From a virus, in the IMG/VR virus record IMGVR_UViG_3300050821_000690, positions 1 to 32,061 of that record: a stretch of DNA of 32,061 nt; one strand, written 5' to 3'. Made by a program: the position numbers and the translations under genes. The notes beneath the pieces are model-generated. The model did not search any database, was not told the origin of the DNA, and worked only from the letters and a program-made list of their open reading frames with translations. Shown piece by piece: positions 1-16,899 of this stretch (within the stretch, counting starts at the first letter, position 1; each line of letters begins with the position of its first letter).

Positions 1-914
1 CCGTTCAGTCCGCTGTTGCCGATCTGGCCGCCGAGCAGGTTGTCCAGGTAGGCATCGTTGCCGGCCTTGCGCGCCTTGGCATGCAGCTCCTGGCCGATCG
101 ACGCCGCGACATTGGGCGCCAGGACGCTGCCGAACTTGTCGAATATGCTCGACGCAGTGCCCCAATCCCCGTGCGCGGCCGCGCCCTCGATAGCGGCATG
201 AATGATCATGCCCTGCTGATCCTGCCCGGCCTGGATGGCCGCCGGGTCGGTGCCGTCGCCGCCATGCGCGCGGCGAAACGCCTGGATGCCGGCCGCGTTC
301 GCGTCGGCCAGTGTGTGCATCAGATGGTCGGGATCGTTGTAAGTAGTGGCCGCCTGACGCATCTGCGTGTCGAGAGTGGACTTCGCGACGGTGTCCTGCC
401 ACGCCTGCTGCTGCGCGTCCAGATGGCGTCCGACCTGTTCCTGCGTTGACGCCATCAGTCGGCGGGACTGCTCGTCGAACTGGAGGCGCTGGGCGTCGTT
501 CTGCAGGCCAGAGCTGATTTGCGAGCGCAGAGACGTCAGCTTCTGCATCATACCCGGGCCGGCGTTGAGGGCGTCTTCGCCGCGCAGAGATATCAGACCG
601 CCGCGTTCCGGCGACCCATCTGGCGCATTCGCGTCGCCATACAGGAGGTTCATGGTCTGATTGGAGTATTGGTTGAATGCGTTGTCGGTTGCGGTCTGGT
701 TCTGCCGCATCTGGACGGTTTGCGCAGCCTGCTCGAGCTGCCCGCTGCCTTGCTGAAGCTGGTTCCCCACCTGCTCGGCCGTGCGCGCGTTGATGGCGCC
801 GAATGCGTTGGCCGGCGCGTTGACGTCTATGTAGTCGCGGCCCGGCGCGCCTGCGGCCCGGGCGGTGGGGATGCCGGCGTCGTATTGGGCCAGTCCACGA
901 ATGCTGTCGCTCAT
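1..914 (-). CDS. Large internal virion protein, N-terminal part (runs off left edge)
   Basis: An open frame starts at ATG 914 and continues without a stop to the window edge, giving about 304 residues of a longer protein. The start overlaps the stop of the upstream gene as ATGA, which supports it. The visible part is polar, rich in Gln, Ala, Asn and Asp, and predicted mostly helical, for example MMQKLTSLRSQISSG and RRLMASTQEQVGRHLDAQQQ. It has no signal peptide. Position after the tail nozzle, GNAT-like and gp14-like genes is where short-tailed phages encode the large ejected core proteins that cross the host envelope with the DNA. No lysozyme or transglycosylase motif is visible in this part; one could lie beyond the edge. 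Function is inferred from position and composition. Confidence 0.7.
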   Translation of the reverse strand, partial: MSDSIRGLAQYDAGIPTARAAGAPGRDYIDVNAPANAFGAINARTAEQVGNQLQQGSGQLEQAAQTVQMRQNQTATDNAFNQYSNQTMNLLYGDANAPDGSPERGGLISLRGEDALNAGPGMMQKLTSLRSQISSGLQNDAQRLQFDEQSRRLMASTQEQVGRHLDAQQQAWQDTVAKSTLDTQMRQAATTYNDPDHLMHTLADANAAGIQAFRRAHGGDGTDPAAIQAGQDQQGMIIHAAIEGAAAHGDWGTASSIFDKFGSVLAPNVAASIGQELHAKARKAGNDAYLDNLLGGQIGNSGLN

Positions 915-1519
915 AGGCCACCCGTTCCGTCACCGACTATTGGACCGCCCTGGTCCGCGCCGCCAGTCCCGCTTGTGCTGCCGCTGGTGCTGCCTAGCGC
1001 GCCGCTGTTCTGGAAGGTTGTCCACTTGTTGGTCAGGGCGCTGGCGCCTTCGATCAGGCTGCCACCGGCCGCCGGCAGCGCGGCGTTGTTGGCGTTCGCG
1101 GCCGCTGTGGTGTCGGCGTTGGACTGGCTGGTGAATGCCATGGACTGGTTCTGGTAGCCGTAGGCAGCGAGAGCAGAGTTGTGCTGCAGGGTGTTGATGT
1201 CCTGGAGGGACGTCATGCGCTGCGACACCCTGGTGTCCACGTTGGACCCGCTGTTGACGTCGGTCCCGAGAGCCCCTTGCATGGCTGCCTCGGCACCTAG
1301 CCTGGCGCGGTTCGCGGCGCCCTGGGCCGCCACGTCTTGCTGCCCCTTCTGCGCCTCGAGGGACGCGTTGTAGCCGGCGATCTTGGCGTTGTTCGCCGCG
1401 ACCTCGGACTGATACTGAGCCTGCTGCGCCTGGGACTTGGCCGAGTTGTATGCGCCGAGCGCCGACACCGCAGTGCCGATCGCGCCGAGGGCAAGTGAGG
1501 CTATGGGCAGAACGGCCAT
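911..1519 (-). CDS. Internal virion protein, gp14-like
   Basis: This encodes 202 residues. The N-terminus has a hydrophobic, glycine-containing stretch (PIASLALGAIGTAVSALGAY, residues 5-24), followed by a long Ala/Gln/Asn-rich helical region and a Gly/Ser/Thr-rich tail. That layout is typical of the smaller internal core proteins of T7-like phages (gp14), which are ejected into the host outer membrane during infection. The start overlaps the upstream stop as TAATG and the end overlaps the next gene as ATGA, so it is translationally coupled on both sides. The role is inferred from architecture and neighbours; primary sequence in this family is poorly conserved. The N-terminal stretch could be mistaken for a signal peptide, but it lacks a clear cleavage site and a basic start. 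Confidence 0.65.
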   Translation of the reverse strand: MAVLPIASLALGAIGTAVSALGAYNSAKSQAQQAQYQSEVAANNAKIAGYNASLEAQKGQQDVAAQGAANRARLGAEAAMQGALGTDVNSGSNVDTRVSQRMTSLQDINTLQHNSALAAYGYQNQSMAFTSQSNADTTAAANANNAALPAAGGSLIEGASALTNKWTTFQNSGALGSTSGSTSGTGGADQGGPIVGDGTGGL

Positions 1520-1968
1520 TATCGTGTCATCCTAATCTTGCGCACCATGACCCCACCGAGGTCCATAGGCTCGAGCACCGTGAATCCCAGGAACTCCGCG
1601 TAGCGTGCCACCCGCGCGTCTCCGTCCAGGATGTATCCGTAGAGCGAGAGTAGCATCCCGCCTTGTAGCAGATCCTGTAGCCACGCGCGAGAAGCGTTTG
1701 CCATCATGCGCTTGTGGTGGCGGGCTTCCTCGGTGACGCAGAACCAGACGTATCCCTCGGTCTCCAGGGTGCCGGCCATGAGGCCCCACATTGCCAGCGG
1801 GCGCCCGGACAGCTCGGCTACCCACACCTCGGAGCACCGGGCTACCAGCTTGCGCAGCTCGCGGCGCGCGCCAAGGTGCTTGATGCCGACGATCGCCTGA
1901 TCAGACATGCCGGCTATCAAGGGTCCGACATGCGTCGGCCTGGCCGGAACTATCTGCGGAGCATCCAC
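1519..1968 (-). CDS. GNAT-fold, gp13-like internal virion protein
   Basis: The protein has 149 residues and starts at GTG 1968, overlapping the end of the upstream gene by 19 bases; AAGG lies about nine bases before the start. The pattern is that of an acyltransferase (GNAT) fold: a strand pair around LAMWGLMAG, then YVWFCVTEE, a helix HHKRMMANASRAWLQDL, a strand LSLYGYI and the terminal RYAEFLGFTVLEP, matching the usual GNAT ending LGF. The acetyl-CoA pyrophosphate loop (Q/R-x-x-G-x-G/A) is not evident after the central strand. Podovirus tail modules often carry such a protein beside the gp14-like gene, annotated as GNAT or internal virion protein A, and a structural or assembly role is more likely than catalysis here. 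Confidence 0.6.
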   Translation of the reverse strand: MDAPQIVPARPTHVGPLIAGMSDQAIVGIKHLGARRELRKLVARCSEVWVAELSGRPLAMWGLMAGTLETEGYVWFCVTEEARHHKRMMANASRAWLQDLLQGGMLLSLYGYILDGDARVARYAEFLGFTVLEPMDLGGVMVRKIRMTR

Positions 1969-3569
1969 GCGCCGGGGCCTTGCTGCTGCCTGCGGTGATC
2001 GGGGTGCTGCTGCGGCTTCTGCTCCTGCGCGAAGCCCTGCTCGGTGATGTCGCCCTCGAGCAGCTCGGGCATGACGGACAGAACCTCGAGCGGTAGCGGG
2101 AGGGGCTGCTGAATGGCGAGCTGGCCCGGTTTGGCCCAGCTATCGTTGACCGTAGTGCGGAGTTCCCCGCTCTGCAGGAAGGTCACCGGCTGTCCGGCCG
2201 GAGATAGGTATGTCAGGACCGATTGCGACTGGGTGCCCTGCTGCGGCTGAAGGGGCGTGGTGGTCATGTTGTTCCACGCCGGCCCGATCGACTGCGGTGC
2301 GGTGGTCGAGCCGTCTATCTGATTGGTCCCGAGCTGGACCGGCCCGCTCTTGTTGACGCGCGCCGTCAGGGCAGACACCGCCTTGCGCCGGCCCTGCACA
2401 GTGGGCGAGCCTGCGTCGAGGCGAGGCGTCTGGAGCTGCGGCAGGAACGGCAGACCGATCTTCACGTTGGTGGCCGGGAACGGCAGGGTCACTGACCCAT
2501 CGAGCGCCACGATCTGCGGCGCCATGGGGATGCCGTCCAACAGCCCGACAACCGCGATCCCGATCAGGTGGTCGAAGCCCCATATCTGCACGACCGGCTG
2601 GGTGACCGTCCATCCGTTGTCGCACGACAGGAAGGTGAACGGCGCGGTGTCGGTAAAGCAGAAGCCGCTCGGGCCGAAGGTGGCGCTGGTGTTGCCGGAT
2701 ACCTGCCACTCATACTCGGTGCCGGGGATCAGACCGGTGATCGTGTAGGACGTGGCGTTGATGCCGTTGATCTGCGTCCAGGCCGACGATCCGTTGATGC
2801 GATATCGCAGCGCGTAGGGCTCGTCGCCCGTGTCGCTCCACACCGGGGTGATTTCGGATGCAGAGTGCGGATTGCCGCAAGTCAGCGGGACGGGCGGGAC
2901 GCTCGGGAAGACGCCTTCGTAAATGCCGACGTCATCGAACAGTATCTCGACGGGAGGCGACGCTACAATGAACTGCCCCTGGATCTGGAACAGGTCTACG
3001 TTGGTCCCGCCGCCGTTCGTGCGAGTGTCGCCGCTGAAGCTCGACGGAGCGCCGCCATCCACGGTCAGGACCGACGTTCCCGTGGCCGACATATCGACCA
3101 CCCAATTCAGGTGGTGCCATGTGTCGAGCGACAGGGTGAACGAGTGCCAAGGATCGGTAGCCGGGAAGCCGGTGCCTGCGTTGAGGTAGCAGGTGCCTTC
3201 GCCGCCCATGTAGAACCGGACGGTGCTGTCCGAGGACGTTTGCTGCAGCAGGAAGCCAGGAGCGTTTGACTCAGGCGGGTCCGGAATGCCGGTGCCGCTC
3301 GGCATGTAGACCCACAGGTCCACAGTCCACACGGGGCCGAGCTGAGACACGCCATTGAGGATCGATCGCTGCACCCAGCCGGCGCCTTCGGCCGTTCCGC
3401 CGTTGATGCCGACGCCGAGCGATTGGGTCGGGCTGTGATAGAACGTGGTTGATATCTGGCTGTCCGGAAAGCTCGGGCCAGCCGGGCCGGTATTCACCCA
3501 CGGCGCGGTGATAGTGTTGGAGCCAGGAGGGTAGCTCTCGAAGTTGTCTAACCAAATCCGCGTCGTCAT
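1950..3569 (-). CDS. LamG-like + FN3 + C-terminal tail-nozzle domain protein
   Basis: I place the start at ATG 3569, five bases after the upstream stop; AGGG lies about ten bases ahead. A GTG at 3611 is an in-frame alternative. Three parts are visible in 539 residues. Residues 1-220 look like a concanavalin A/LamG beta-sandwich (TWHHLNWVVDMS, SVLTVDGG, ILFDDVGIYEG). Residues 225-315 look like fibronectin III (ALRYRINGSSAWTQI, TSYTITGLIPGTEYEWQVSG). Residues 315-525 match the usual C-terminal end of podovirus nozzle proteins: IWGFDHLIGIAVVGLLDG, VTLPFPATNVKIGLPFLPQL, TVQGRRKAVSALTARV and LPLPLEVLSVMPELLEGDI. That last part is missing from the neighbouring nozzle gene, so the two products probably complete one tail structure. 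The outer domains may bind host surface glycans (inference). Confidence 0.75.
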   Translation of the reverse strand: MTTRIWLDNFESYPPGSNTITAPWVNTGPAGPSFPDSQISTTFYHSPTQSLGVGINGGTAEGAGWVQRSILNGVSQLGPVWTVDLWVYMPSGTGIPDPPESNAPGFLLQQTSSDSTVRFYMGGEGTCYLNAGTGFPATDPWHSFTLSLDTWHHLNWVVDMSATGTSVLTVDGGAPSSFSGDTRTNGGGTNVDLFQIQGQFIVASPPVEILFDDVGIYEGVFPSVPPVPLTCGNPHSASEITPVWSDTGDEPYALRYRINGSSAWTQINGINATSYTITGLIPGTEYEWQVSGNTSATFGPSGFCFTDTAPFTFLSCDNGWTVTQPVVQIWGFDHLIGIAVVGLLDGIPMAPQIVALDGSVTLPFPATNVKIGLPFLPQLQTPRLDAGSPTVQGRRKAVSALTARVNKSGPVQLGTNQIDGSTTAPQSIGPAWNNMTTTPLQPQQGTQSQSVLTYLSPAGQPVTFLQSGELRTTVNDSWAKPGQLAIQQPLPLPLEVLSVMPELLEGDITEQGFAQEQKPQQHPDHRRQQQGPGAWMLRR

Positions 3570-3571
3570 CT

Positions 3572-5923
3572 TCAGTATCCCTGGATGCCGTATGGCGGCG
3601 GTAAGACCCACGTAGCGAACACGTTGCTCGTGTCAGAGAAGCCGGTGATGTTGGCGATGCCACCCGCGATGCGCAGCACTGAGCCAACCATCGATGGCGT
3701 GAACGGTGTAGCGTTCGGCGCGCTGATCAGGCAATCACCAGTGAGCGATGACGCCACGAGGATCGCATTGAACGTCGGCATGTCAACGCCAAGCCCGGAG
3801 TCAACGCACCACGGATCTTCGCTGCTATCCCACACGCGCGGGTCCATGCGCTCTATGATGTAGAACGCGCCCTGCGGGCTGTTTCGAAGGACGATGACGT
3901 AGATCGCATCTACTGGAGGCTCTGTGACTGCGGTCACACTGACGAACGCGCCTAGCGTGTCATGGCGCGCCCAGCCGTAGACTTCCTGCTCCTTCAAATA
4001 CGTGAAGGACAGCATGACGCCGTCGCATCGGATTGCCCAAATGACCTTGTATGGTTCCTCGGCCCACGCCCACTGCTTCAGCTCGCCGATCGAGAAGAGA
4101 TGCGATGACAGGACGGTCTGGTCGGTGCCGGCGTAGTTGTTCGTGAAGTAGTTGTATACCATGTCGCGCACGACATTGCCCTTGGCCTGCACGAACAGGA
4201 TATCGGTGTAGACCGGTATCGGGCCGATCGACGCAGAGATGCCGGCGAACATCTGCGGCGTGGCCTGCTGTCCGGACGGCGTGATCGCCACCGGGTTCAA
4301 CGCCGAACCACCAGGACCAGATACCTGCCATGCGCCGCCGCCCGTTAGCGTCACGAGTCCGCCTGGCTCAGCGAGCATCCACTGAATGCCGTTCACCTGC
4401 TGCGCCCACGGCGTGCCGGTGATCGCGTCGTCAGGCTGCACGGGGATGCCGCTGTCGAAGTTGGTGAAGAAGCCCGGCTTAGACATGAAGTATGTGTCGG
4501 GTTGGTTCAGCGTGTTCGCGTATACGCGGCGCTGTTGGAAGTAGGCGACGACGCTGGGATTGTTACCGGTCTGTGGTCCAATCACAATGTTGAGTCCGGC
4601 TCCGGTGCCGTCGCCTGCTACTGTCGCGAAGTCGGACGCGGCGTAGTTCTCGCCCGCATTCGTGATGATGTATCCGGTGATACCGCCATTGACGATGACC
4701 GGTATGATGATGGCTCCGCTGCCGGTCGAGGTGTGGACCGTAACTGCGGCAGTGGTGTAGTTGTTGCCCTCTGCCGCGACGTTCGCTCCGATGATGGAGC
4801 CCGCTGCGAATGGGTTCTTGTGGATAGGTGGAACTTGCGTCTGATCAGGGATCGTGTTCGAGTCAACGAACTGCGTTCCGTAGGACAGTCCGACGAAGCT
4901 GAAGATCGCGCCGAGCGGGACTGGGAGAGCCGTGGTGGTGTTGCCTGGCAGCGTGTTGTAGGACGTCGGCGCGCGGTAGACGTTGTAGTATGCGGCATTG
5001 TTTACCGTCGACCAGTTGACGATGTTCGATCCAGCGGTGATCGACATATCGACGGCGTTGACAACGTTCCCGATGTTCGATGCTATGCTCTCTTGGCCCG
5101 CCGCGTTGACAGCCGTCACCACGTAGGCGTATGCTGCAGGCAGCGTCGGAGGCGACAGGCTGGAGTTCGGCTGCACCGTAGCAGTCACGCCAGTGATCGT
5201 CGGCGGGGTAATGTCAACGTCGAAGCTTGTCTGCACCAGCGTCCAGTCTGTATCGGTGATCCGAGACAGGTCGTAGGGCGGATAGTTCGGGTGCGTGAAG
5301 CTCATCACGTCCGCGCTCTGCGCGAACTTCAGCGTCGCTATGTCCTGTATCGCCCAAGGAGTCTCGATGGTGAGCAGCTTGGACATTATCCCGCCGGCCA
5401 AGTAAGCCGGAAACGCCGTGCTATCGACCGGTGGTCCGGTCAGCATGGAGATTTCAACGTTGTTGGCATCTACCACTGTGACGCCATAGAACCTATCGTT
5501 GACCGGTGTCATGCCCTGCACGCCAGAGATGAACGCCCTATCTCCGTTGTTGAAGGAATGACCTGGAATCGTAACCACCGCAGTGGTAGCCTGCGAGATG
5601 CCCGTTATGCCAGTCGACAGGTAGACGATCGGCGAGCCCTGGAAGTAGAACGACATATACTGGTTGCCCAGCTCCAGGACGTAGCCTTGGCTGTTCGAGA
5701 ACTGGAACGTGATCAGGCGCGGAGGGAACTGCGAGTTGGCCGGCGTGCTGGACAGCAGGACGAACTCCGTGCCGCCGCGCGACATAGCGCCACCACGATA
5801 GTTCACGAATAGATTCCGCATCGTAGATGCGGCAACGTGATACTTGGAAAGGTCGACGTGCCCGAACAGAGCCGGGGATATTTCCCCAGCAGAGAAGCTC
5901 GTCTGGATTAGAGGCGTTGTCAT
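3572..5923 (-). CDS. Tail nozzle / tubular protein B-like, N-terminal and middle part
   Basis: The 783-residue product opens with the family signature QTSFSAGEISPALFGHVDLS followed by NLFVNYRGGAMSRGGTEFV, typical of phage tail stabilisation or nozzle proteins that form the distal end of a short tail. Around residues 235-345 there is an Ig/FN3-like insert (AYAYVVTAVNAAGQESIAS), and near residues 385-450 a glycine-rich piece (GYIITNAGENYAASDF). The region FQQRRVYANTLNQPDTYFMS and the later IRCDGVMLSFTYLKEQEVYGW and IERMDPRVWDSSEDPWCVDSG are standard nozzle segments. The protein stops right after GIANITGFSDTSNVFATW, where homologues normally continue into a conserved C-terminal domain, here found in the next gene. 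The start overlaps the upstream stop as TAATG. Confidence 0.82.
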   Translation of the reverse strand: MTTPLIQTSFSAGEISPALFGHVDLSKYHVAASTMRNLFVNYRGGAMSRGGTEFVLLSSTPANSQFPPRLITFQFSNSQGYVLELGNQYMSFYFQGSPIVYLSTGITGISQATTAVVTIPGHSFNNGDRAFISGVQGMTPVNDRFYGVTVVDANNVEISMLTGPPVDSTAFPAYLAGGIMSKLLTIETPWAIQDIATLKFAQSADVMSFTHPNYPPYDLSRITDTDWTLVQTSFDVDITPPTITGVTATVQPNSSLSPPTLPAAYAYVVTAVNAAGQESIASNIGNVVNAVDMSITAGSNIVNWSTVNNAAYYNVYRAPTSYNTLPGNTTTALPVPLGAIFSFVGLSYGTQFVDSNTIPDQTQVPPIHKNPFAAGSIIGANVAAEGNNYTTAAVTVHTSTGSGAIIIPVIVNGGITGYIITNAGENYAASDFATVAGDGTGAGLNIVIGPQTGNNPSVVAYFQQRRVYANTLNQPDTYFMSKPGFFTNFDSGIPVQPDDAITGTPWAQQVNGIQWMLAEPGGLVTLTGGGAWQVSGPGGSALNPVAITPSGQQATPQMFAGISASIGPIPVYTDILFVQAKGNVVRDMVYNYFTNNYAGTDQTVLSSHLFSIGELKQWAWAEEPYKVIWAIRCDGVMLSFTYLKEQEVYGWARHDTLGAFVSVTAVTEPPVDAIYVIVLRNSPQGAFYIIERMDPRVWDSSEDPWCVDSGLGVDMPTFNAILVASSLTGDCLISAPNATPFTPSMVGSVLRIAGGIANITGFSDTSNVFATWVLPPPYGIQGY

Positions 5924-6852
5924 TAGTAGGCGCTGCCGTCAGGGAACGGCGAGGCCTCCCAGCCATTGAATAGATAGCCCGGGCCGGCGTAGCCACCGTC
6001 TCCGGCATAGCCGTAGCCTCCGCGCCCACCTGACATGCGGGTGCGTATCCAGGCCGCCTCGTGATTGGTATTGGCCGGCGACTCGTTGCCATCGGCCACG
6101 CGCGCCGCGTCGAGTGCCTTCTTTGCGGAAGCGATGCATTGGTCGCGCATCGGTATCGCCAGCTTGGGCTCCTTCGCCATCCACAGCGGCGTCGCGCACT
6201 TGGCAGCGAGCACCTGAATGACCGCCTGACGGAACAGCGGGTCCCACACGCTCGGCTGATCGACCAGCGAGGTGTAGACAAGCGACGCCTGCTGCTGGTT
6301 CGTCAGGATCACGGTTTGCTGGTTGTATGCGGCTCCCTGGACTCCTTCGAGATCGGGGAGCTGGTTCCAGTTTGAGATGGCCCCAACGACAGTCGGTATA
6401 AGGTCTTGGGAGACAAGGAACGGCGCTGGGATCGTGCGGGCCACTGGCCACGGCGAAGGTAGAGTTGTCGGCGGGACGTTGGGTGGCTGGGTGACGATGT
6501 TTCCACTTGGCACCGGGCTAGTGATGCTGCCTGTCACAGGGACGTAGCGAGCCTTCAGGCAGTCGACCGGCCACGCATACTCGTAGATCCACAGGCCCAT
6601 GCCAGGCGTGCCGGTGCCGACCGGAGGCTGGCTCTGCTGCGTAGCGTCCTGCAGGAGGATTAGCTGAGCCTGCCTCCGGCAGAAGTTCCAGTGCGCCGCG
6701 CGGCTGATCTCCTCGACGGTCGGAGCGTAGTTGCGAAGCAGGACGCGCGCCTCGCGCGACCCTTCCTGCAGATCACCGATCGTGTTGATCCAGCCGATGC
6801 TGTCCAGGGCCTGATTGCAGATGTCCGCGTGCTGGACGCCAAGTATGCTCAT
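5923..6852 (-). CDS. Tail tubular protein A-like adaptor (third tandem copy)
   Basis: The 309-residue product resembles gp11/tail-tubular-A adaptors that link portal and nozzle. It carries the pattern CNQALDSIGWINTIGDLQEG, then SREARVLLRNYAPTVEEI, HWNFCRRQAQLILL, LWIYEYAWPVDCLKARYV and a later VYTSLVDQPSVWDPLFRQAV. Compared with the two upstream paralogues it has a longer proline-rich central insert (about residues 110-150) and a glycine/tyrosine-rich tail (GGRGGYGYAGDGGYAGPGY). The start overlaps the upstream stop as ATGA and the end overlaps the nozzle start as TAATG. Its place directly before the nozzle fits an adaptor contacting the nozzle. Confidence 0.75.
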   Translation of the reverse strand: MSILGVQHADICNQALDSIGWINTIGDLQEGSREARVLLRNYAPTVEEISRAAHWNFCRRQAQLILLQDATQQSQPPVGTGTPGMGLWIYEYAWPVDCLKARYVPVTGSITSPVPSGNIVTQPPNVPPTTLPSPWPVARTIPAPFLVSQDLIPTVVGAISNWNQLPDLEGVQGAAYNQQTVILTNQQQASLVYTSLVDQPSVWDPLFRQAVIQVLAAKCATPLWMAKEPKLAIPMRDQCIASAKKALDAARVADGNESPANTNHEAAWIRTRMSGGRGGYGYAGDGGYAGPGYLFNGWEASPFPDGSAY

Positions 6853-7457
6853 GACGGCCTCACCTCTGCCTCAGTCTTCGCCTGGATCGCCATGCGCTCC
6901 GCGAGCTGGGTGTCATTCGGATCCTTGCCGAGTTCGCGGCCGAACAGAACTGCAAGCCGCTCGATCAGGCTGTCGATGAAGTTTTGGTCCTGCCACTCGG
7001 ACGGGTCGACCACGCGTGCGGTTATGATCGCCAGCGGGCGAGAGAGGTTCGTGACGATCACGCGGGCGGCGAGCTGCGAATCGTAGACCGCCTGGAAGAT
7101 ATTGACGCGCGGCATGGCCTCCGGAATGAACAGAGGCAATGGCCTGACGCTGCGAACCTTGATGGCGTTCGCAGGATAGGTGAACTCGTAGATCCAGGGC
7201 GGCGGCGGGTTGGTCGACGGGTTCCACGGCGTGATGCCGTAGCCGGCAGGCGGCGCGGTCTTGATCGGCGCGCCGAGGTCCACTTCCTGCTGCAGAAAGT
7301 CCCAATCGAACTCGCCGAACAGAGAGTCGCGCGTCTGCCCGTAGAAGTCGAGCGCCACGCGTGAGGCGCGCGAGCCTTCGTATATGTTGCCGATCGGCGT
7401 GGGATATCCGCAGCGACGGAGCGCCGCGTTCAGGAGGTCTTCGACCGCGAGTGCCAT
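6849..7457 (-). CDS. Tail tubular protein A-like adaptor (second tandem copy)
   Basis: This 202-residue protein follows the same plan as the downstream gene: LLNAALRRCGYPTPIGNIYE with GSRASRVALDFYGQTRD, FDWDFLQQEVDL, PWIYEFTYPANAIKVRSVRP and IITARVVDPSEWQDQNFIDS. In the family these segments form a helical bundle that docks under the portal. The EGS-R-ASRV segment and the aromatic W/F position are well preserved. Overlaps on both sides (TAATG and ATGA) couple its translation to both neighbours. It is the closest in length to a minimal adaptor. Whether all three copies are built into the virion cannot be told from sequence. Confidence 0.75.
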   Translation of the reverse strand: MALAVEDLLNAALRRCGYPTPIGNIYEGSRASRVALDFYGQTRDSLFGEFDWDFLQQEVDLGAPIKTAPPAGYGITPWNPSTNPPPPWIYEFTYPANAIKVRSVRPLPLFIPEAMPRVNIFQAVYDSQLAARVIVTNLSRPLAIITARVVDPSEWQDQNFIDSLIERLAVLFGRELGKDPNDTQLAERMAIQAKTEAEVRPS

Positions 7458-8023
7458 TAGCTGTCCCTATCCATATCGGACCCGCTGACCTTGCCGGCCC
7501 AATCGAGCATCTTCTCGGAGAAGTCCGGGCGCCCGGCGACGGGGATGGCGAGCTGGCTTCCGAGATAGCGCACCATGGCCTCTGTGAAGCTGTCGTCCCA
7601 ATCTCCCTCTGTCACGTCGTTTGTCGTGATCACCGCCGCGTAGGATAGCTGGTTAGAGCAGACGCACTCCACGCCGTTGCTGAAGTACACCGACCATCGG
7701 ACTGGCTGCGGATCTAGTATGTTCAGGTTGTTAGGCAGTAGGGTGCGGATGCGAACGGCGTTCGTGGGATAGACGTAGGAGAACGGCGAGCCCGGAAGCC
7801 CGCTGGTCCCACCAGTCACGAGCGGAACCACATCGCGGGCGAACTCGTAATCCTGCTGGCGCAGCAGCATCTGCACCGCACCCTGGTATAGGGCCGCCGC
7901 GTAGATCCCATTGGGGGAGCCATCGAAGTCAGTGCCAACGGTCCCGCTCGCCAGGGGCACGCCCTGGGCGATTTCCGTCAATGCTCTGTTTACAACGTCC
8001 AAACTGGTCAAGCTCGGGATCAT
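7457..8023 (-). CDS. Tail tubular protein A-like adaptor (first tandem copy)
   Basis: The 188-residue product is the most divergent of three adjacent adaptors. It keeps the outline VVNRALTEIAQGVPLASG, then NGIYAAALYQGAVQMLLRQQ, DYEFARDVVPL, FSYVYPTNAVRIRTLLP and ITTNDVTEGDWDDSFTEAMV, with final helices SQLAIPVAGRPDFSEKML. The conserved EGS segment of the other two copies is replaced by a longer loop (VGTDFDGSPNG). The start at ATG 8023 follows a good ribosome site (AAGGCCTGACC) just after the methyltransferase gene. It is probably a head-completion or tail adaptor component of the same ring system. Confidence 0.7.
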   Translation of the reverse strand: MIPSLTSLDVVNRALTEIAQGVPLASGTVGTDFDGSPNGIYAAALYQGAVQMLLRQQDYEFARDVVPLVTGGTSGLPGSPFSYVYPTNAVRIRTLLPNNLNILDPQPVRWSVYFSNGVECVCSNQLSYAAVITTNDVTEGDWDDSFTEAMVRYLGSQLAIPVAGRPDFSEKMLDWAGKVSGSDMDRDS

Positions 8024-8025
8024 GG

Positions 8026-8733
8026 TCAGGCCTTGTGGAAAAGCAGGTTCACGAACGTGTAGTCTAGGCCGATCCAGTTGATCACGCGCTCATTGCACGC
8101 CAAGCGCGCTGTGGTGGTTAGGTGTAGCCCATGATCGAGGGCCACGGCGCACAGCGCTACCAGATCGCCATAGCTGAAGATGCGAACTGGCGCGCCGAAC
8201 GCTTGGCGATCTCCGGTGTCGATAGGCTCTTGCCAGTAGTCGGTGCTGATGAAGAGACCGCCGCCAGGCTTCAGAGTGCGAGCTGCTTGTCCCAGGAACT
8301 TGTCGACGTTGACACCGTGCTCGATGACGGAGAAGCAGCCGATGAAGCTGATGGTGTTGGCTCCGAAGCGGAGAGCTTCGATGTTTCCGTGCTCGTAGCC
8401 AATTCCGTCCACATAAGCTTGACCGCGCATGTCGAGGTTATTGCCAACAAGATTGCGGAAACCAAGTTTCCGTAGGCCAGGAAGAAATGCTGAACCATCA
8501 CCTGCTCCGGCGTCGAGGACCAGCCCATCAACCTCGACGTGCATTGCTGCGTAGGCGAGTGCGATCAGGTTGTCCCAATTTTTGGGCCTGTCGCAATGAT
8601 GGGGCAACCCCAACGTTTCTAGCAATCCGACCGATTCGTCAACCTCTTTTTGCGTTTGCAACGCTGAGTTGATTTCGGCAACGGCCCACGTATACGCGGG
8701 AAGCAGCCTATCGGTTGTGATGCGGTTCACCAT
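8026..8733 (-). CDS. SAM-dependent methyltransferase (class I)
   Basis: I choose ATG 8733 (235 residues); an upstream in-frame extension to 8802 would overlap the preceding gene. The Rossmann-type SAM site is clear: motif I VLDAGAGDGSAFLPGLRKLG around residues 70-90, an acidic position near NNLDMRG, a post-II region ISFIGCFSVIEHGVNVDKFL, and motif III TLKPGGGLFISTDYW. This matches small-molecule or glycan methyltransferases rather than DNA methylases: no N/DPPY or PC catalytic motif is seen. It interrupts the fibre-to-tail gene order. Lines I counted in it have 53-57% GC, against about 67% in the adjacent fibre gene, suggesting separate acquisition. The substrate is unknown; modification of a surface glycan or virion protein is only a guess. 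Confidence 0.8.
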   Translation of the reverse strand: MVNRITTDRLLPAYTWAVAEINSALQTQKEVDESVGLLETLGLPHHCDRPKNWDNLIALAYAAMHVEVDGLVLDAGAGDGSAFLPGLRKLGFRNLVGNNLDMRGQAYVDGIGYEHGNIEALRFGANTISFIGCFSVIEHGVNVDKFLGQAARTLKPGGGLFISTDYWQEPIDTGDRQAFGAPVRIFSYGDLVALCAVALDHGLHLTTTARLACNERVINWIGLDYTFVNLLFHKA

Positions 8734-8755
8734 GTCGGCACATATACACCATTCC

Positions 8756-9580
8756 CTAGCAGTTGGGGAAGGGACCTGTCGCTGGTGTGTAGGCGCCGGC
8801 ATAGCGCGCGACGCCCTTTGTGACCCGAACCTCGTCGATATAGCCCGTCCAGTTCTCCGAGCTGCTGTTCCCCCAATTGCCTATGTTCGCAGTGCCGAGG
8901 GACGGAGAGCCGAAGATGGTATCCGACGCGGTCTGTGTCGCCACCACCGCGCCGTTGACGTAGAGGCGGAAGGTGTTGCCCGATCGGTCGCAGGCGTAGC
9001 TGATCCAGGTGTTCGCGGCCGGCGTGTAGGCGCCTGACGTTGCCACCGAGTTGCTGAACGAGCTGCCATCGGTCGACCAGTTGAACGCCAGCGTCGCCGG
9101 GCTCGAGCCACGGTTCCACACCAGCGACCACATTTCGGTGCCTGAGAAGCCCGGCCAGAACGCCACGATGCCCGGGAAGTTGCTGGCAGAGGTGCCATCC
9201 CAATAGGCCCACGCCTCCACGGTGAAGGCACCGGAGCCGAACTCGTAGAGCGAGTCCGCGCCTCCAGGTGCCGTGTTGCCGCCGTTGACCAGCAGGCTGG
9301 CCGTGCCGAACTCGAATTGCGCGGTGCTTGCCGATGAGCCGGAGCTGCACAAGACCGACTGTGCGTTGCTCGAGCTGTCGACCAGCGTGGTCGCGCCATT
9401 CGATTGGTCGAAATGACATAGCAGCGAGACGTCAGCGAAGTAAGGGTCGCAGGCGCCACCAGAGCCACCACCTGAGAACAGTGGCGGGGCGACGAACTGC
9501 GCCCTGGCCGAGCGCGCGCTGATGATCGCTGGAGCGGCCAGCGTCAGCAGCTTGCGGCGCGGGAGGATCAGCTTGCCCAT
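8756..9580 (-). CDS. LamG/ConA-like fibre protein with Tat-type signal
   Basis: The 274-residue product begins with a twin-arginine style signal (PRRKLLTLAAPAII, residues 7-20, then ARAQ as a likely cleavage site near residue 28). After a Gly/Ser linker it has one concanavalin A-like LamG jelly roll: SLLCHFDQSNGATTLVDSSS, FTVEAWAYWDG, AANTWISYACDR, TFRLYVNGAVVATQTAS, IGNWGNSSSENWTGYIDEVR and VTKGVARYAGAYTP. Such domains often bind polysaccharides and occur in phage tail fibres. The start overlaps the upstream fibre gene stop as TGATG. An export signal on a virion-type protein is unusual; it may instead be a secreted protein or the hydrophobic segment may serve as an anchor. Confidence 0.8.
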   Translation of the reverse strand: MGKLILPRRKLLTLAAPAIISARSARAQFVAPPLFSGGGSGGACDPYFADVSLLCHFDQSNGATTLVDSSSNAQSVLCSSGSSASTAQFEFGTASLLVNGGNTAPGGADSLYEFGSGAFTVEAWAYWDGTSASNFPGIVAFWPGFSGTEMWSLVWNRGSSPATLAFNWSTDGSSFSNSVATSGAYTPAANTWISYACDRSGNTFRLYVNGAVVATQTASDTIFGSPSLGTANIGNWGNSSSENWTGYIDEVRVTKGVARYAGAYTPATGPFPNC

Positions 9581-10170
9581 CAGTGAGCGAAGGCCTTCTG
9601 CAGGCTGACCGCGATGTGGGTGCTGTCGATGACGTAGTAGGACAGGATATCCACCGCATTGTCGCCAGTCGAGAGCGTGAGCGACGCTGTGCCGCCCGGG
9701 GCCTCATACTGGCTGCCCCAAGTGCCGATCGTGTTGGACCCGGTGGAGGACTGGATGATCTCGATCTCGCCGCCCGTGCCAGCGACCGGTGTGGTGCTTG
9801 GATTGGCGAGCGTGCAGGGGCAGGCCGTCGTCAGCAGGATAGAGTAGTTGTTCGAGCTGCCATCCGGCGTGAATGTCACGGTGCTGATCGCCAGTGAGGT
9901 CGGGGTGACCGACTGCTGCGCCGACCACACGTTGGTCCCGTTCAGCAGTGGAACGGTGCTGCCCGACGTCCCGGTGTTCTTCGCGCAGGCAGTCCCGCCG
10001 TTCGAAAGGCTGGCGCAAGCGGCCTGGGTGAATGCACCGGTTGTCGGGGCGAAGCTGAGCGCGCCGGTCACGCCGTTGATGGCGTTGTATTGGACCGGCC
10101 CCAGGATCGTTGCGGCGGCGGCTGCCGGGATAATGAAGCCCTTCAGCCAGGACAGCAGGGCGCCGATCAT
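9580..10170 (-). CDS. Tail fibre-like protein
   Basis: The 196-residue product starts with a hydrophobic stretch (GALLSWLKGFIIPAAAAATI, residues 3-22) and continues as a beta-rich, Gly/Thr/Ser-rich chain: YNAINGVTGALSFAPTTG, SNNYSILLTTACPCTLANPS, GTGGEIEIIQSSTGSN, then a tail DNAVDILSYYVIDSTHIAVS. This ending is a recurrent C-terminal module of phage fibre and head-spike proteins. Its start overlaps the preceding fibre gene as ATGA, and it ends by TGATG overlap with the LamG fibre gene, so the three genes are probably made together. Receptor contact is inferred from fold type and position only. Confidence 0.65.
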   Translation of the reverse strand: MIGALLSWLKGFIIPAAAAATILGPVQYNAINGVTGALSFAPTTGAFTQAACASLSNGGTACAKNTGTSGSTVPLLNGTNVWSAQQSVTPTSLAISTVTFTPDGSSNNYSILLTTACPCTLANPSTTPVAGTGGEIEIIQSSTGSNTIGTWGSQYEAPGGTASLTLSTGDNAVDILSYYVIDSTHIAVSLQKAFAH

Positions 10171-11300
10171 GGGATGACCCGGATGGCGTAAGTCTGGCTG
10201 GCCGGCGTAAGCGAGCCGCTGCTGATGTTGCAGATGTTCAGGGTCACAGTGTTGGTAGCGGACACCGAAGCTGACCACACCCATCCGCTCGCCAGGCCAG
10301 TGATAGGGCTGGCGACAGCCACCATAGAGGTGGTGGCGCCGGTCACGGTCGTGTTCTGCTGTTGGCAAGTCTGCGCAGAAGTCGCGCCCGGGTTGAAGGT
10401 CGCGGACGTGGCGGTCAGAGGTGCCGGCGTCGTGCCGGCCGGCGTCAGCCACGTTCCAGCGCCACTCAGGAAGTGCGCGGCATTTGTGTCTGGCGTCGAG
10501 CAGCCATTGGTGCCAGAGCCAGCCAAGGCGCACGCGACGGTGCCGGTCGCCGTGATCGTGCCGCCTGTCAAGCCGGTTCCAGCCGTGATGCTGGTCACCG
10601 TGCCGGCTGCTGCGGCGGTCCAGCTCGGATCAGCCGTCGCGCCGTTGCTAGTCAGGACGTAGCCGGATGTGCCGGCGCTACCGAGCGTGTAGGGCGCGGC
10701 GCCAGCGCCGCCACCGAGCACGACCTGATGAACCGCGAGCGCGCCGGATGACGCCATCGTCGAGGACGATGCGAAGTAGGGCAGGCCGCCGCTGGTCCCG
10801 GTGGTAAGGCCCGTCCCGCCCAGCGCCACGGATACCTGCGGGCTGATGGCGATGACGCCGCTGGTGACAGTGATGCCGCTACCGCCCGTGTAGGACGGAA
10901 TGGTGATGGTAGACCAAGTCGGGTTCGCGGCCGCACCGAGCGTCTCGAGATACTGGCCGCTCGTTCCGGGAGCGAGGAACACCCAGCCAGTGGAGTTGCG
11001 ATAGAGGATGTCGCCCTGCGCGTAGCTGCCGAGCGAGTCGATCAGCGCCGTCAGTGGCGTGTCGGCCGCAGGCTGCGGCGTGTTGTTGGCATTGCCGATC
11101 AGGTGGCTCTGCGCGATCGTCGGGAAGTTCAGGGTCAGACTGTTGACGCCAGAGTCCTGGACTACGCCGTTGCGGGTCCAGCTCGCGAAGTCATTCGGGA
11201 CCACGACGCCATACTGCATCACGGCGCCCTGCGAGTGCGCCTCGGTCGGGATGTAGAGGGCGGCTGCGGCGAGCAGCAGTGCAGCGAGGATCTTCTTCAT
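10167..11300 (-). CDS. Repeat-rich tail fibre-like protein with Sec signal
   Basis: The ATG at 11300 is preceded by AGGA at seven bases. The 377-residue product opens with a classical Sec signal (KKILAALLLAAAALYIPTEA, cleavage near HSQG at residue 24). The rest is fibre-type: ASWTRNGVVQDSGVNSLTLN, DSLGSYAQGDILYRNSTGW with GTSGQYLETLGAAANPTW, then Gly/Thr/Ser repeats (GGTGLTTGTSGGLPYFASSS, GAAPYTLGSAGTSGYVLTSN, SITAGTGLTGGTITATGTV) and a beta C-terminal module (SGWVWSASVSATNTVTLNIC). Such repeats are common in phage fibres and shafts. A strong terminator hairpin lies just upstream of it, between this gene and the capsid-side genes, so its level may be set lower than theirs. Confidence 0.7.
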   Translation of the reverse strand: MKKILAALLLAAAALYIPTEAHSQGAVMQYGVVVPNDFASWTRNGVVQDSGVNSLTLNFPTIAQSHLIGNANNTPQPAADTPLTALIDSLGSYAQGDILYRNSTGWVFLAPGTSGQYLETLGAAANPTWSTITIPSYTGGSGITVTSGVIAISPQVSVALGGTGLTTGTSGGLPYFASSSTMASSGALAVHQVVLGGGAGAAPYTLGSAGTSGYVLTSNGATADPSWTAAAAGTVTSITAGTGLTGGTITATGTVACALAGSGTNGCSTPDTNAAHFLSGAGTWLTPAGTTPAPLTATSATFNPGATSAQTCQQQNTTVTGATTSMVAVASPITGLASGWVWSASVSATNTVTLNICNISSGSLTPASQTYAIRVIP

Positions 11301-11314
11301 GTCATGTTCCTGAA

Positions 11315-11343
11315 ACAGAAATGGGCCGCCCTGCCGGCGGCCC
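11315..11343 (-). terminator. Rho-independent terminator
   Basis: A perfect 8-bp G/C stem (GGGCCGCC with GGCGGCCC, 11323-11343) has a 5-base loop. On the minus strand it is followed by ATTTCTGTTT, a T-rich run, so it can end minus-strand transcription after the gene at 11378-11677. It lies only 23 bases before the fibre gene start, so read-through must supply the fibre genes unless an unseen promoter exists. On the plus strand it is followed only by TTTG. Confidence 0.7.
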
Positions 11344-11377
11344 TTTGTCGTCCGGATTAAGGGCCTTTGTCTGAGCC

Positions 11378-11677
11378 TCAGTCGTGGTTCACGTCTGCGA
11401 ACGAATCATCGACGTTGCCGACCAGAACCGCTTCAGCTACTGGCTCGATGACTACCGCCGGTATCTGCGCCCAAAGAACCTTGCCCGAGCAGTTGTCGGT
11501 CTGCAGCTCTTCGCGATGGTATACGCCGTGCGCGCCCGTCCCGTCAGCCGGGCTTTTGCCATCGAGAGGGTTAATGCGATCGATGTGCGTGCGCTTGTCG
11601 TCTGCATTCCAGAAGTGCTCGATCTGGAACGGCCCGCCCGGCTGATGCCGGATGGTAGCGTCATTCGCTATCGCCAT
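11378..11677 (-). CDS. Small phage protein of unknown function
   Basis: The 99-residue acidic product overlaps the previous gene by 17 bases and starts at ATG 11677 behind a GAGG. It reads as a compact soluble beta-containing domain: ATIRHQPGGPFQIEHFWNAD, then GVYHREELQTDNCSGKVLWA and PAVVIEPVAEAVLVGN. No signal peptide, membrane segment or recognised motif is present. Lying between a likely capsid-associated small protein and the fibre block, it may be a minor virion or assembly component. It is the last gene before the terminator. I do not recognise a family with confidence. Confidence 0.65.
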   Translation of the reverse strand: MAIANDATIRHQPGGPFQIEHFWNADDKRTHIDRINPLDGKSPADGTGAHGVYHREELQTDNCSGKVLWAQIPAVVIEPVAEAVLVGNVDDSFADVNHD

Positions 11678-11969
11678 CGTCCTCGCCTTCCTTGCTCTCG
11701 TCTTCCCAATGCAGCATCTCGACGATGCGCATCTCGACGCACCGGCCGTTGGATTCGCTGTCGCTGCAGTGGGTCACCTTGGCCATCACGGCCAAGTGAA
11801 TGAGGTCACCCACGGAGCAGGCGTCATCCTTGTCGATCCCGAGCAGGTTCAGCTCGCGTTCTGACAGGTTGATGCAAAGGCCCCATGGGTGATCGTTGCG
11901 GACGGCTTCGATCGGCGCCGGGTTGGCGCGTTCGCGAAGCTCGTCCTCAGTGTAGCGCATATCGGCCAT
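11661..11969 (-). CDS. Small capsid-associated-type protein (staple-like)
   Basis: I choose ATG 11969, with GGAG seven bases before it, giving 102 residues. The core pattern HPWGLCINLSERELNLLGID followed by SVGDLIHLAVMAKVTHCSDS and CVEMRIVEMLHWEDES resembles a widespread class of small phage beta proteins, sometimes annotated as capsid staple or decoration proteins, where a P-x-G-L-x-L-x-L-x-x-E-x-L-x-x-L-G segment precedes a V-G-D strand. The tail is strongly acidic (ESKEGEDDGDSE). Family membership is from pattern memory, so the role is tentative. It follows the small basic proteins of the ESLF cluster. Confidence 0.6.
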   Translation of the reverse strand: MADMRYTEDELRERANPAPIEAVRNDHPWGLCINLSERELNLLGIDKDDACSVGDLIHLAVMAKVTHCSDSESNGRCVEMRIVEMLHWEDESKEGEDDGDSE

Positions 11970-11994
11970 CAGCCGACTCCACCGCCGGGTGTCA

Positions 11995-12510
11995 TCAGAT
12001 CCCGCCGCCGCCAGCGCCCGCAGGCGCGACGTTGTTCGGGCTCGGCCCGGCAGTGCCCATTTCGGGGCCAGCGCCGGCCGGCATTCCACCTGGAGGTGCA
12101 GCAGCGCCCGCACCCGGCATTCCTGCCTGCTGCGCGGATTGCTCTTCGGCCATCTGGCGCGCGTTCAGCGCCCTGTGGTCGGCCTCGTGACGCTCGCCCA
12201 TCTTGCGGCGCTCATCGCGGTGGTTGCCGTGCATGTCCTTGCTCTCTTGCTCATGCTTGCCACGCATCTCGCGGCGTTCGGCCGCGTGGCGCGTCGGCAT
12301 GTCAGCGGGAGCAGCTTCCTTCTTTGAAGGGGCCTGTCCGCCGCTCTTGGCGCCGCCGCCCTCGTTGCTGTTGGAGTTCTCGCCCGAGCTGGTCTTCTTC
12401 TCGTCTGAGCCGTGGTTGGCCTCGACGCGCTTCGCAGGAGACTCTTTGCCGTCCTCCGAACCTTCCTTCTTCGGTGAGAAGAGGGACTCTTTCTTTCCGG
12501 CTGCCATCAT
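11995..12510 (-). CDS. Charged low-complexity protein with 11-residue repeats
   Basis: The 171-residue product starts at ATGATG 12510, overlapping the previous stop as ATGA. It opens with KKESLFSPK (residues 6-14), a peptide shared with two neighbours. Residues about 15-70 are Ser/Lys/Glu/Gly-rich and probably disordered. Residues about 73-116 hold four consecutive 11-residue units: RHAAERREMRG, KHEQESKDMHG, NHRDERRKMGE and RHEADHRALNA. His and Met/Leu recur at fixed places, consistent with a hendecad helical coil. The end is Pro/Gly/Ala-rich. No enzyme motif is seen. Similar His/Glu/Arg/Met repeats occur in other phage proteins of unknown role. A virion-internal or assembly role is possible. 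Confidence 0.7.
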   Translation of the reverse strand: MMAAGKKESLFSPKKEGSEDGKESPAKRVEANHGSDEKKTSSGENSNSNEGGGAKSGGQAPSKKEAAPADMPTRHAAERREMRGKHEQESKDMHGNHRDERRKMGERHEADHRALNARQMAEEQSAQQAGMPGAGAAAPPGGMPAGAGPEMGTAGPSPNNVAPAGAGGGGI

Positions 12511-12539
12511 TTGCTCCTGTTGAACAAGGACTCTTTCTT
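12484..12539. repeat. 12-base direct repeat encoding the ESLF motif
   Basis: GGACTCTTTCTT occurs at 12484-12495 and again at 12528-12539, 44 bases apart. On the minus strand both encode KKES of the motif KKESLF, in two different genes (start of one protein, end of the other). The identity at base level suggests duplication. Confidence 0.7.
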
Positions 12540-12722
12540 GTTCTTCTTGCCGTGGTGCATGCCCATCAGGGTCTCAGCAAGGCGCGCTTCGTCGCCAAGC
12601 TTCCCGGGCGCGTGTTCTTCCTTCTTGGCGTAGGCAGCGGTGGTCATGCCGGCCTTCTGCGCCTTCGCGCGGAACTGGCCGTGTGCATTCTCCGTCGCGC
12701 CGCTGATCCACTTGGAAGCCAT
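12507..12722 (-). CDS. Small basic phage protein with C-terminal ESLF motif
   Basis: The 71-residue product begins MASKWISGATENAHGQFRAK, followed by KAGMTTAAYAKKEEHAPGKL and DEARLAETLMGM. This outline (SKWI-x-GA, then A-x-x-A-G-x-T/S, then G-x-x-x-ARLA-x-TL) recurs in many short proteins near phage head and tail genes, none with a known function to me. The C-terminus is KKNKKESLFNRSK, sharing ESLF with the neighbours on both sides. AAGGAACGACG precedes ATG 12722. Confidence 0.7.
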   Translation of the reverse strand: MASKWISGATENAHGQFRAKAQKAGMTTAAYAKKEEHAPGKLGDEARLAETLMGMHHGKKNKKESLFNRSK

Positions 12723-12741
12723 CGTCGTTCCTTATAGCACG

Positions 12742-12936
12742 TCAGCTCTTCTTGTTGAAGAGAGACTCCGGCTTGTTGCGAGGCTTCGCGGCGTGCTTGT
12801 TGGCGGTGGCAATAGCCTCGCCTTCAGGCACGCCGTGCTTGATCATCGCAGTCGCCTGCGCAGCCGCCTCGGAGGCAGCAGCGCCGCTCAGTTTGTGATT
12901 GTGTTTCGCGGCAAACTGCTTACCAGTCCAGGGCAT
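12742..12936 (-). CDS. Small basic phage protein with C-terminal ESLF motif
   Basis: The 64-residue product has the outline MPWTGKQFAAKHNHKLSGAA, then ASEAAAQATAMIKHGVPEGE and AIATANKHAAK, a pattern seen in short proteins of other phages: K-x-F-A-x-x-H-N followed by an Ala-rich helix and a G-V-x-E-G-x-A-I turn. It ends KPRNKPESLFNKKS, again with the ESLF peptide. The helical region suggests a small helix-turn-helix bundle but not a clear DNA-binding domain. It sits three bases after a fibre-like gene. The ribosome site is weak, suggesting coupled translation. Function unknown. Confidence 0.7.
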   Translation of the reverse strand: MPWTGKQFAAKHNHKLSGAAASEAAAQATAMIKHGVPEGEAIATANKHAAKPRNKPESLFNKKS

Positions 12937-12939
12937 CGA

Positions 12940-13449
12940 TTAGCCTGCAGACTCGGACCAAAGGTCCCACGTCGAGGTCGGCGTGTTGTAGATCAGGCAG
13001 TATGTGATGTTCGCGGTCAGGGCGGTCAGAGCGGCTGCGGTGGCGATCGTCTGCGTGGTTGCGCCAGCGGCGATCGTGACGGCCGTCTGCGTCTGCGTCG
13101 AGCGCATGCAGTTGAGCTGCCCGTTGCCCGGGTTCGCCGCGAGGGTGAACGTGCCGGTCGCCAGGGTGCCCGCCGGCTTGATCAGGTAGTTGGTCTGACC
13201 AGCGCCGAACGACAGTGAGAAGGCCGTCAGAGGAACGGTCTCGACGTAGCCCGACACTCCGTTGACCTGAGACGCAGTCGCATACTTGCTCTGCGCGGTC
13301 GGCATGCCGTGCTTGACGACCTGAACCAGATCGTCGGAGTCGACCTTCTGCACGGTCGGGATAACGACGGTCTGCGCGATGGCCGCACCGATAGAGGCTG
13401 CCAGGGCAATGCCCGCCACGGCGGCGAAGAAGGCGTCACGAAACTTCAT
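12940..13449 (-). CDS. Exported fibre/appendage-type protein
   Basis: I choose ATG 13449 (169 residues), with AAGGA about ten bases ahead; the longer frame to 13515 overlaps the upstream gene and lacks a purpose. It starts with a Sec-type signal (FFAAVAGIALAASIGAAIAQ, residues 7-26). Next comes a short module, PTVQKVDSDDLVQVVKHGMP and TAQSKYATASQVNG, which recurs in the next upstream protein. The remainder is a beta domain (TAFSLSFGAGQTNYLIKPAG, GTFTLAANPGNGQLNCMRST, NITYCLIYNTPTSTWDLWSE), a module often found in phage appendage proteins. Function is inferred as a structural appendage. Confidence 0.65.
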   Translation of the reverse strand: MKFRDAFFAAVAGIALAASIGAAIAQTVVIPTVQKVDSDDLVQVVKHGMPTAQSKYATASQVNGVSGYVETVPLTAFSLSFGAGQTNYLIKPAGTLATGTFTLAANPGNGQLNCMRSTQTQTAVTIAAGATTQTIATAAALTALTANITYCLIYNTPTSTWDLWSESAG

Positions 13450-13466
13450 TGGAGCGGTTCCTTGTG

Positions 13467-16103: not shown

Positions 16104-16144
16104 TTCATTTCCTCTCTCACACTGGGCCATTGAACTCAGTCAAA

Positions 16145-16510
16145 TTAGCCCAGGATGAGATAGTTGTATGTGCTGGTGTCCGAGCTGCCGCACGTCACGG
16201 TGAACCCGGTGCCAGGCGTGATGGTCGCGACGAACGGAGCCGCTACGGTCCCGCCGACAGTCTTGAGGGTCATGAACACCTGCGACCCGGCGTTGGTGTA
16301 TGTGTCGGCCACGGTCGCGGCGCTGGTCGCGCAAGTGAACGTCCCGCCGCTCATGAGAGCGATGGTCGCCTGCGGGCCGGTCGACTGGATCGGAACCGAG
16401 AAGTGCCCAGCGAAGCTGGTGAGCACGATCGCGCCAGAGACATAGCTCTGCGCGAACGCAGCGCCGGCCAGAGCGATAGCCATTGAGACCCCGAGCAGAA
16501 ACTTTTTCAT
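16145..16510 (-). CDS. Small exported beta protein, appendage-type
   Basis: Of two close ATGs I choose 16510, because AGGA lies eight bases before it and only two bases before the other. The 121-residue product has a clear Sec signal (KKFLLGVSMAIALAGAAFAQ, cleavage after residue 20). The mature part is beta-rich: GGTFTCATSAATVADTYTNA, QVFMTLKTVGGTVAAPFVAT and ITPGTGFTVTCGSSDTSTYN followed by YLILG. This is a module common at the ends of phage fibre and spike proteins, here standing alone behind a signal. Two cysteines (in TFTC and VTC) could form a disulfide if exported. Confidence 0.65.
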   Translation of the reverse strand: MKKFLLGVSMAIALAGAAFAQSYVSGAIVLTSFAGHFSVPIQSTGPQATIALMSGGTFTCATSAATVADTYTNAGSQVFMTLKTVGGTVAAPFVATITPGTGFTVTCGSSDTSTYNYLILG

Positions 16511-16521
16511 GTGCATGTTCC

Positions 16522-16899
16522 TCAGTATCCAGCCGACATGGCCATCTGGCCGTTGCCGCTGATTCGTGTGTTGGCGGTGCCGCTTGAGTAAGCGGTGCAG
16601 TTGGAGCGGTATAGCACACCGCGCTCCGGTTCGAAAAGCTGAAACGAAGCGACCGCAGTGGTAGTGACCACGGAAGTGGTGAATGGGATGTGCGTGCCAA
16701 CCCAAGTGGTTCCACCATCGTAGCTCTTCTCGAGCACTACGGTTCCGCTGAACGTGCCGTAGACCGTGAAGTTGAACCAGCCATACGGGCAGGCGTAGAC
16801 GGTTGACGCAATCTGAGATCCGAGAGCGTCCGCCGCCACGAAGTTAGCCAGATCGCCTGCGCCCGGCGTCTGCGAGATACCAGTTGTTGGGATACCCAT
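16522..16899 (-). CDS. Probable virion decoration or head-completion protein
   Basis: The 125-residue product is a beta-rich domain without a signal peptide: STVYACPYGWFNFTVYGTFS, GTVVLEKSYDGGTTWVGTHI, SFQLFEPERGVLYRSNCTAY, NTRISGNGQMAMSAGY. The GTVVLEKSYDGGTTW strand pair is characteristic of small phage beta-sandwich proteins that bind capsid or tail surfaces. The start shares a base with the upstream stop (TAATG). Position directly after the head block suggests capsid decoration; a tail-associated role is possible. Confidence 0.6.
   Translation of the reverse strand: MGIPTTGISQTPGAGDLANFVAADALGSQIASTVYACPYGWFNFTVYGTFSGTVVLEKSYDGGTTWVGTHIPFTTSVVTTTAVASFQLFEPERGVLYRSNCTAYSSGTANTRISGNGQMAMSAGY

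Follow-up and report, generated by a model that had tools for sequence, protein, structure and literature searches.

Is the tail nozzle of this virus built from two separate chains? The question is raised by two adjacent genes, ORF1 and ORF2, in the stretch of viral DNA analysed here (32,061 nucleotides; hereafter the window). An earlier note, made from the sequence alone, had proposed that a nozzle was cut at this place by an inserted host-binding module and that the pieces are made as two proteins. We compared both products with known nozzles and with related viral loci, and the coordinates of the features are collected in Table 1.

Table 1. Features of the two nozzle genes and of the genes upstream of them in the window
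Feature	Position	Strand	Remark
ORF1	3572..5923	-	783 aa; N-terminal platform strands, tip/inserted domains, beta-propeller, one small beta module
First ~45 residues of ORF1	5789..5923	-	assigned by homology to T7 gp12
E1_FCCH-like inserted domain, ORF1 ~105-182	5378..5611	-	27.0 bits, under the 29.5 cut-off
Beta-propeller core, C-terminal part, ORF1 455-716	3776..4561	-	
Small beta module behind the propeller, ORF1 ~717-777	3593..3775	-	stays on ORF1
ORF1/ORF2 junction	3567..3574	-	stop TGA 3574-3572, AG, start ATG 3569-3567
ORF2	1950..3569	-	539 aa; putative adhesin module, FN3 and nozzle dock/platform
N-terminal module, ORF2 1-218	2916..3569	-	LamG according to the earlier note; without family match
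FN3 domain, ORF2 ~220-302	2664..2912	-	PF00041, E 1.7e-5
C-terminal nozzle part, ORF2 313-510	2040..2633	-	fibre-dock-like strands, then platform; pLDDT mostly >80
C-terminal tail of ORF2	1953..2039	-	ends GPGAWMLRR
Three tandem adaptor-like genes	5923-8023	-	all phrog_394
Methyltransferase-like gene	8026-8802	-	Methyltransf_23 (Pfam), E 1.2e-10
Block between capsid and adaptor genes	8756-17684	-	several signal-peptide-like starts
Signal-peptide-like start	16145-16705	-	
Signal-peptide-like start	13467-16130	-	
Signal-peptide-like start	12940-13515	-	
Signal-peptide-like start	10167-11300	-	
Signal-peptide-like start	8756-9580	-	real Laminin_G_3 match, E 2.6e-15

ORF1 and ORF2 match consecutive parts of one nozzle

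In profile searches, ORF1 matched positions 6-551 of phrog_376 (712 positions; E 3.9e-122) and ORF2 matched positions 547-707 (E 2.4e-17), and the two together covered the profile a single time. Sequence matches to the Carin1 nozzle (PDB 8ck1) extended up to residue 630 for ORF1 (E 5.6e-81) and from residue 674 to 827 for ORF2. Alignment to single-chain nozzles thus agrees with the earlier proposal that the 783-residue gene holds the N-terminal and middle segments and that the usual C-terminal domain stands at the end of the next gene. The stop of ORF1 had been placed at GFSDTSNVFATW, which is not exact, since ORF1 continues to VLPPPYGIQGY.

The AF2 model of ORF2 was good in its C-terminal part only. 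There, residues 313-509 were aligned with residues 657-830 of 8ck1 (Z 10.6) and with residues 603-788 of T7 gp12 (Z 6.3). The GPGAWMLRR end resembles the GPGxWML ends of the single-chain relatives L003 and L004. For another single-chain relative, L043, an AF2 model with pLDDT 87 was aligned over its full length with Carin1 (Z 41.3) and T7 gp12 (Z ~24; 1..984 against 2..789). The model of a single-chain homologue also matched the FCCH region of UBA6 (Z 14).

A profile scan of the window, whose record may be incomplete, gave one nozzle core and one C-terminal part. The dock and platform of ORF2 are the sole copy in the window, which argues against a C-terminal segment that is a separate, unrelated protein. 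By sequence homology, ORF1 and ORF2 correspond to the two halves of a T7 gp12-type nozzle.

The three adaptor-like genes (phrog_394) lie upstream of ORF1; downstream of ORF2 are matches to phrog_308 and phrog_418, and the genes there encode gp13-like and gp14-like internal virion proteins. T7 shares this order of adaptor, nozzle and internal virion proteins, with a single gp11 where the window has three adaptor-like genes. In Carin1, the nozzle gene has the same place, behind the connector gene. The methyltransferase-like gene of the window is flanked by the gene of the LamG protein on one side and by the adaptor genes on the other. Two proteins of the block between the capsid and adaptor genes have the motif DLxQVxxHGxPxxQxxYAT in common.

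The break is shared with a sister locus

Viral contigs were scanned with ORF1, the C-terminal part, the related locus L001 and alignments as queries, which gave well over a hundred loci, and the relatives were classed by profiles for the propeller core and the C-terminal part. Both parts were present in one ORF in 104 of the 108 distinct related nozzle cores. The window and L001 were the only cores whose first ORF ends inside the contig without a C-terminal part; the other core-only rows end at a contig edge, and L112 and L120 account for 2 of the 108 cores cut in this way. Almost all relatives are thus single-chain.

The window and L001 were sisters in the core tree (260 columns; support 100/99, path length 0.74). 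The first ORF of L001 stops at WILPPSQLVS and ORF1 of the window at WVLPPPYGIQGY, in both cases just past the small beta module, and the common break point is WxLPP. The second gene of L001 starts by a TGATG overlap, and the 239 residues of it that can be seen have nothing in common with ORF2; the contig ends 718 nt into this gene, short of any possible C-terminal part. No Pfam, PHROG or PDB match, no phage match and no further contig were found for this second gene, and its only NCBIfam match was sub-threshold. Repeats of the STIVG...W kind were seen in it by eye, like HAF-type extracellular repeats, a likeness that no profile backs.

Since the two sisters carry different sequences behind the same break, the split and the module are separable, and the split appears to be inherited while the module differs. 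The split is well supported as an inherited trait, as opposed to a local accident, and most simply it predates the present modules. The earlier note's picture of two chains, with additional material where the nozzle is parted, is retained, but in view of L001 the insertion of a module into an intact nozzle is no more than one of the possible histories. When the C-terminal parts were placed in a tree, ORF2 stood beside L040 (100/85), a locus that the core tree also puts close to the window, and this agreement is consistent with a single ancestral nozzle gene.

A frameshift or an assembly error is unlikely

The most likely start of ORF2 is the ATG at 3569, 2 nt past the ORF1 stop (TGA AG ATG), which gives 539 aa. 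The GTG at 3611 was disfavoured against it. A frameshift joining both genes had been named in the earlier note as an outcome that would overturn its reading, and it can be considered in two forms.

The first is a sequencing or assembly frameshift that broke one long nozzle gene carrying the module in frame. With an overlap of 60 nt and an offset of one base between the two frames, a single indel could join ORF1 and ORF2, and such artefacts do occur in the set. L010, aligned with its near twin L002, shows a deletion, with gaps of 25 nt, and in the Pseudomonas phage PfDIW6 (L171 2492-4961, OM418631) a stretch is repeated in both pieces; both apparent splits were rejected as probable error or decay, the likely error in PfDIW6 being one of assembly or sequencing. 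However, L001, which comes from another record, has its break at the identical place, where a clean TGATG overlap is followed by a different sequence, and this argues against such an error in the window. The strong support for the sister grouping and the ATG of ORF2, which lies exactly where the new module starts, also speak against it, and we regard an error as very unlikely.

The second is programmed -1 frameshifting, by which the short ORF1 product and, in addition, a long fusion of both ORFs would be made. Relative to ORF1, ORF2 occupies the -1 frame in the window and L001 alike, but a TGATG or TGA-AG-ATG junction alone produces this frame relation, and no slippery heptamer of the form X XXY YYZ was found in the 60-nt overlap. 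This mode of expression is hardly to be expected here.

A module-accepting site lies between the propeller and the dock

The gap between the propeller and the C-terminal part was compared among 123 distinct nozzles. It held nothing in 13, one small beta module in 50, and an extra module in addition to the small one in 60. The gap in relatives thus holds from none to two small beta modules, each ~75 aa long, which indicates that this site accepts modules. The extra module is related to another module within the same protein (ORF1 374-447). In the pair of the window and L001, the small beta module is kept on the first chain and new material leads the second.

ORF2 has ~310 extra residues ahead of its nozzle part. 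The fibronectin III-like segment described earlier scored above the Pfam gathering cut-off (25.4 against 25.0 bits). The LamG label for the N-terminal segment was not sustained: it had zero Pfam, PHROG or PDB sequence matches, even at E 10, and its AF2 model was poor (pLDDT 25-45). Relatives of the module were not confirmed in viral contigs and not found in plasmids, and a phage search gave one weak match, to the FN3 part only. The module was also not found in 398 sampled genomes of one phylum, in a search run without a positive control. The other LamG-like protein encoded in the window gave no meaningful match to it (E 0.17).

From its position, the FN3 domain and its difference to L001, a plausible guess is that the module is a receptor-binding or adhesin part, with a putative role in host binding. 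Alternatively, both chains may build the nozzle while the module docks a separate fibre, or decorates or stabilizes the tail, and does not bind a receptor. It is located where T7 and SU10 have their fibre dock region, and the window has further possible adhesins upstream, including the true Laminin_G_3 protein; moreover, the viral record that makes up the window is incomplete, and separate fibres may be encoded elsewhere in the genome. On the other hand, the module is wholly unlike between the window and L001, as host-range parts would be, and FN3 domains are frequent among phage tail proteins. A non-receptor role is thus a serious alternative to the receptor-binding arm, although a rather unlikely one.

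Two-gene nozzles also occur in cultured phages

In the Xanthomonas phages SAC, CP2, 10KY502B and Olaya, which were isolated by different groups, the nozzle homologue is encoded by a pair of genes, 1392 and 1713 nt long, that overlap. The break lies ahead of the propeller, with a TAATG overlap (SAC: L168 2495-5598; also L173, L174 and L175). CP2-like phages are cultured and virulent and have podophage particles (PMC8143317), and their viability in culture means that phages can live with a nozzle encoded by two genes. They resemble the window in this two-gene homologue, but they differ in the break site, have no adhesin-like module at the break, and carry the dock, the platform end and the propeller together on the second chain.

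Twelve other phage records had a single-chain nozzle. The record of Limnohabitans phage DC33 (L163, PQ492659) says Inoviridae, yet it contains a block of capsid and tail genes with the nozzle of a podophage. Nozzle homologues were found in 97 of 385 sampled genomes of one class, where the N-terminal and core pieces, if both were listed, were generally in one open frame. No published description of split nozzles, including the CP2-like ones, was found in a literature search that mostly did not cover subscription journals.

The structurally known nozzles are single chains. That of the Cobetia phage Carin1 (gp36, PQ119497) has sequence and fold homology across both ORF1 and ORF2, but it is one chain of 830 aa without a large module ahead of the C-terminal part. 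T7 gp12 (PDB 6r21 and others) shares the fold, with a platform formed from both termini, a seven-bladed propeller, a tip and a dock before the platform; it differs in being one chain, and its fibre, the trimer gp17, is docked as a separate component (PMC6702177). In SU10, the dock of nozzle gp17 (PDB 7z47) carries receptor-binding fibres at the propeller edge; in contrast, this nozzle is a single chain and its short tail fibres are separate and held non-covalently (PMC9509320).

Proposed two-chain nozzle

We consider it likely that ORF1 and ORF2 are two proteins that form one subunit of a T7 gp12-type tail nozzle. That the nozzle is encoded in two pieces, with additional sequence where they part, is well supported by homology, by the single copies and by the split in the sister. 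The two proteins would probably be made through stop-start translational coupling.

In T7 gp12, the fibre dock forms the link between propeller and C-terminal platform, and the first 45 residues supply three platform strands (PMC6702177). By homology to this layout, on which the assembly proposal is based, ORF1 would carry the N-terminal platform strands, the tip and the propeller, and ORF2 the dock together with the larger share of the platform. Three strands of the platform barrel are predicted to come from the first ~45 residues of ORF1, which would complete the platform of ORF2. Because the barrel would be built from both chains, ORF1 and ORF2 are expected to associate physically and to co-assemble, with six copies of each per virion.

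The ORF2 module and FN3 would be attached covalently just ahead of the dock, on the outside of the nozzle at the site of the fibre in T7, and could serve as a built-in receptor-binding arm. Carried at the free N-terminus of a chain of its own, the module might be exchanged without disturbing the DNA-gating propeller. As a tentative generalization, to which we give somewhat less than even chances, two-chain nozzles may be a recurrent and so far undescribed podophage design, in which the second chain bears an exchangeable receptor-binding module on the dock and no separate fibre is needed there.

Annotation that expects one gene for one nozzle will overlook split cases. Cultured CP2-like phages bring two-chain nozzles within reach of ordinary virion proteomics or cryo-EM. 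The nozzle is the gate and the tip of podophage tails, and this natural split reveals where an essential nozzle tolerates a cut and stays heritable. It also suggests a route by which host-range modules may be exchanged beside the gate while the gate itself is left untouched.
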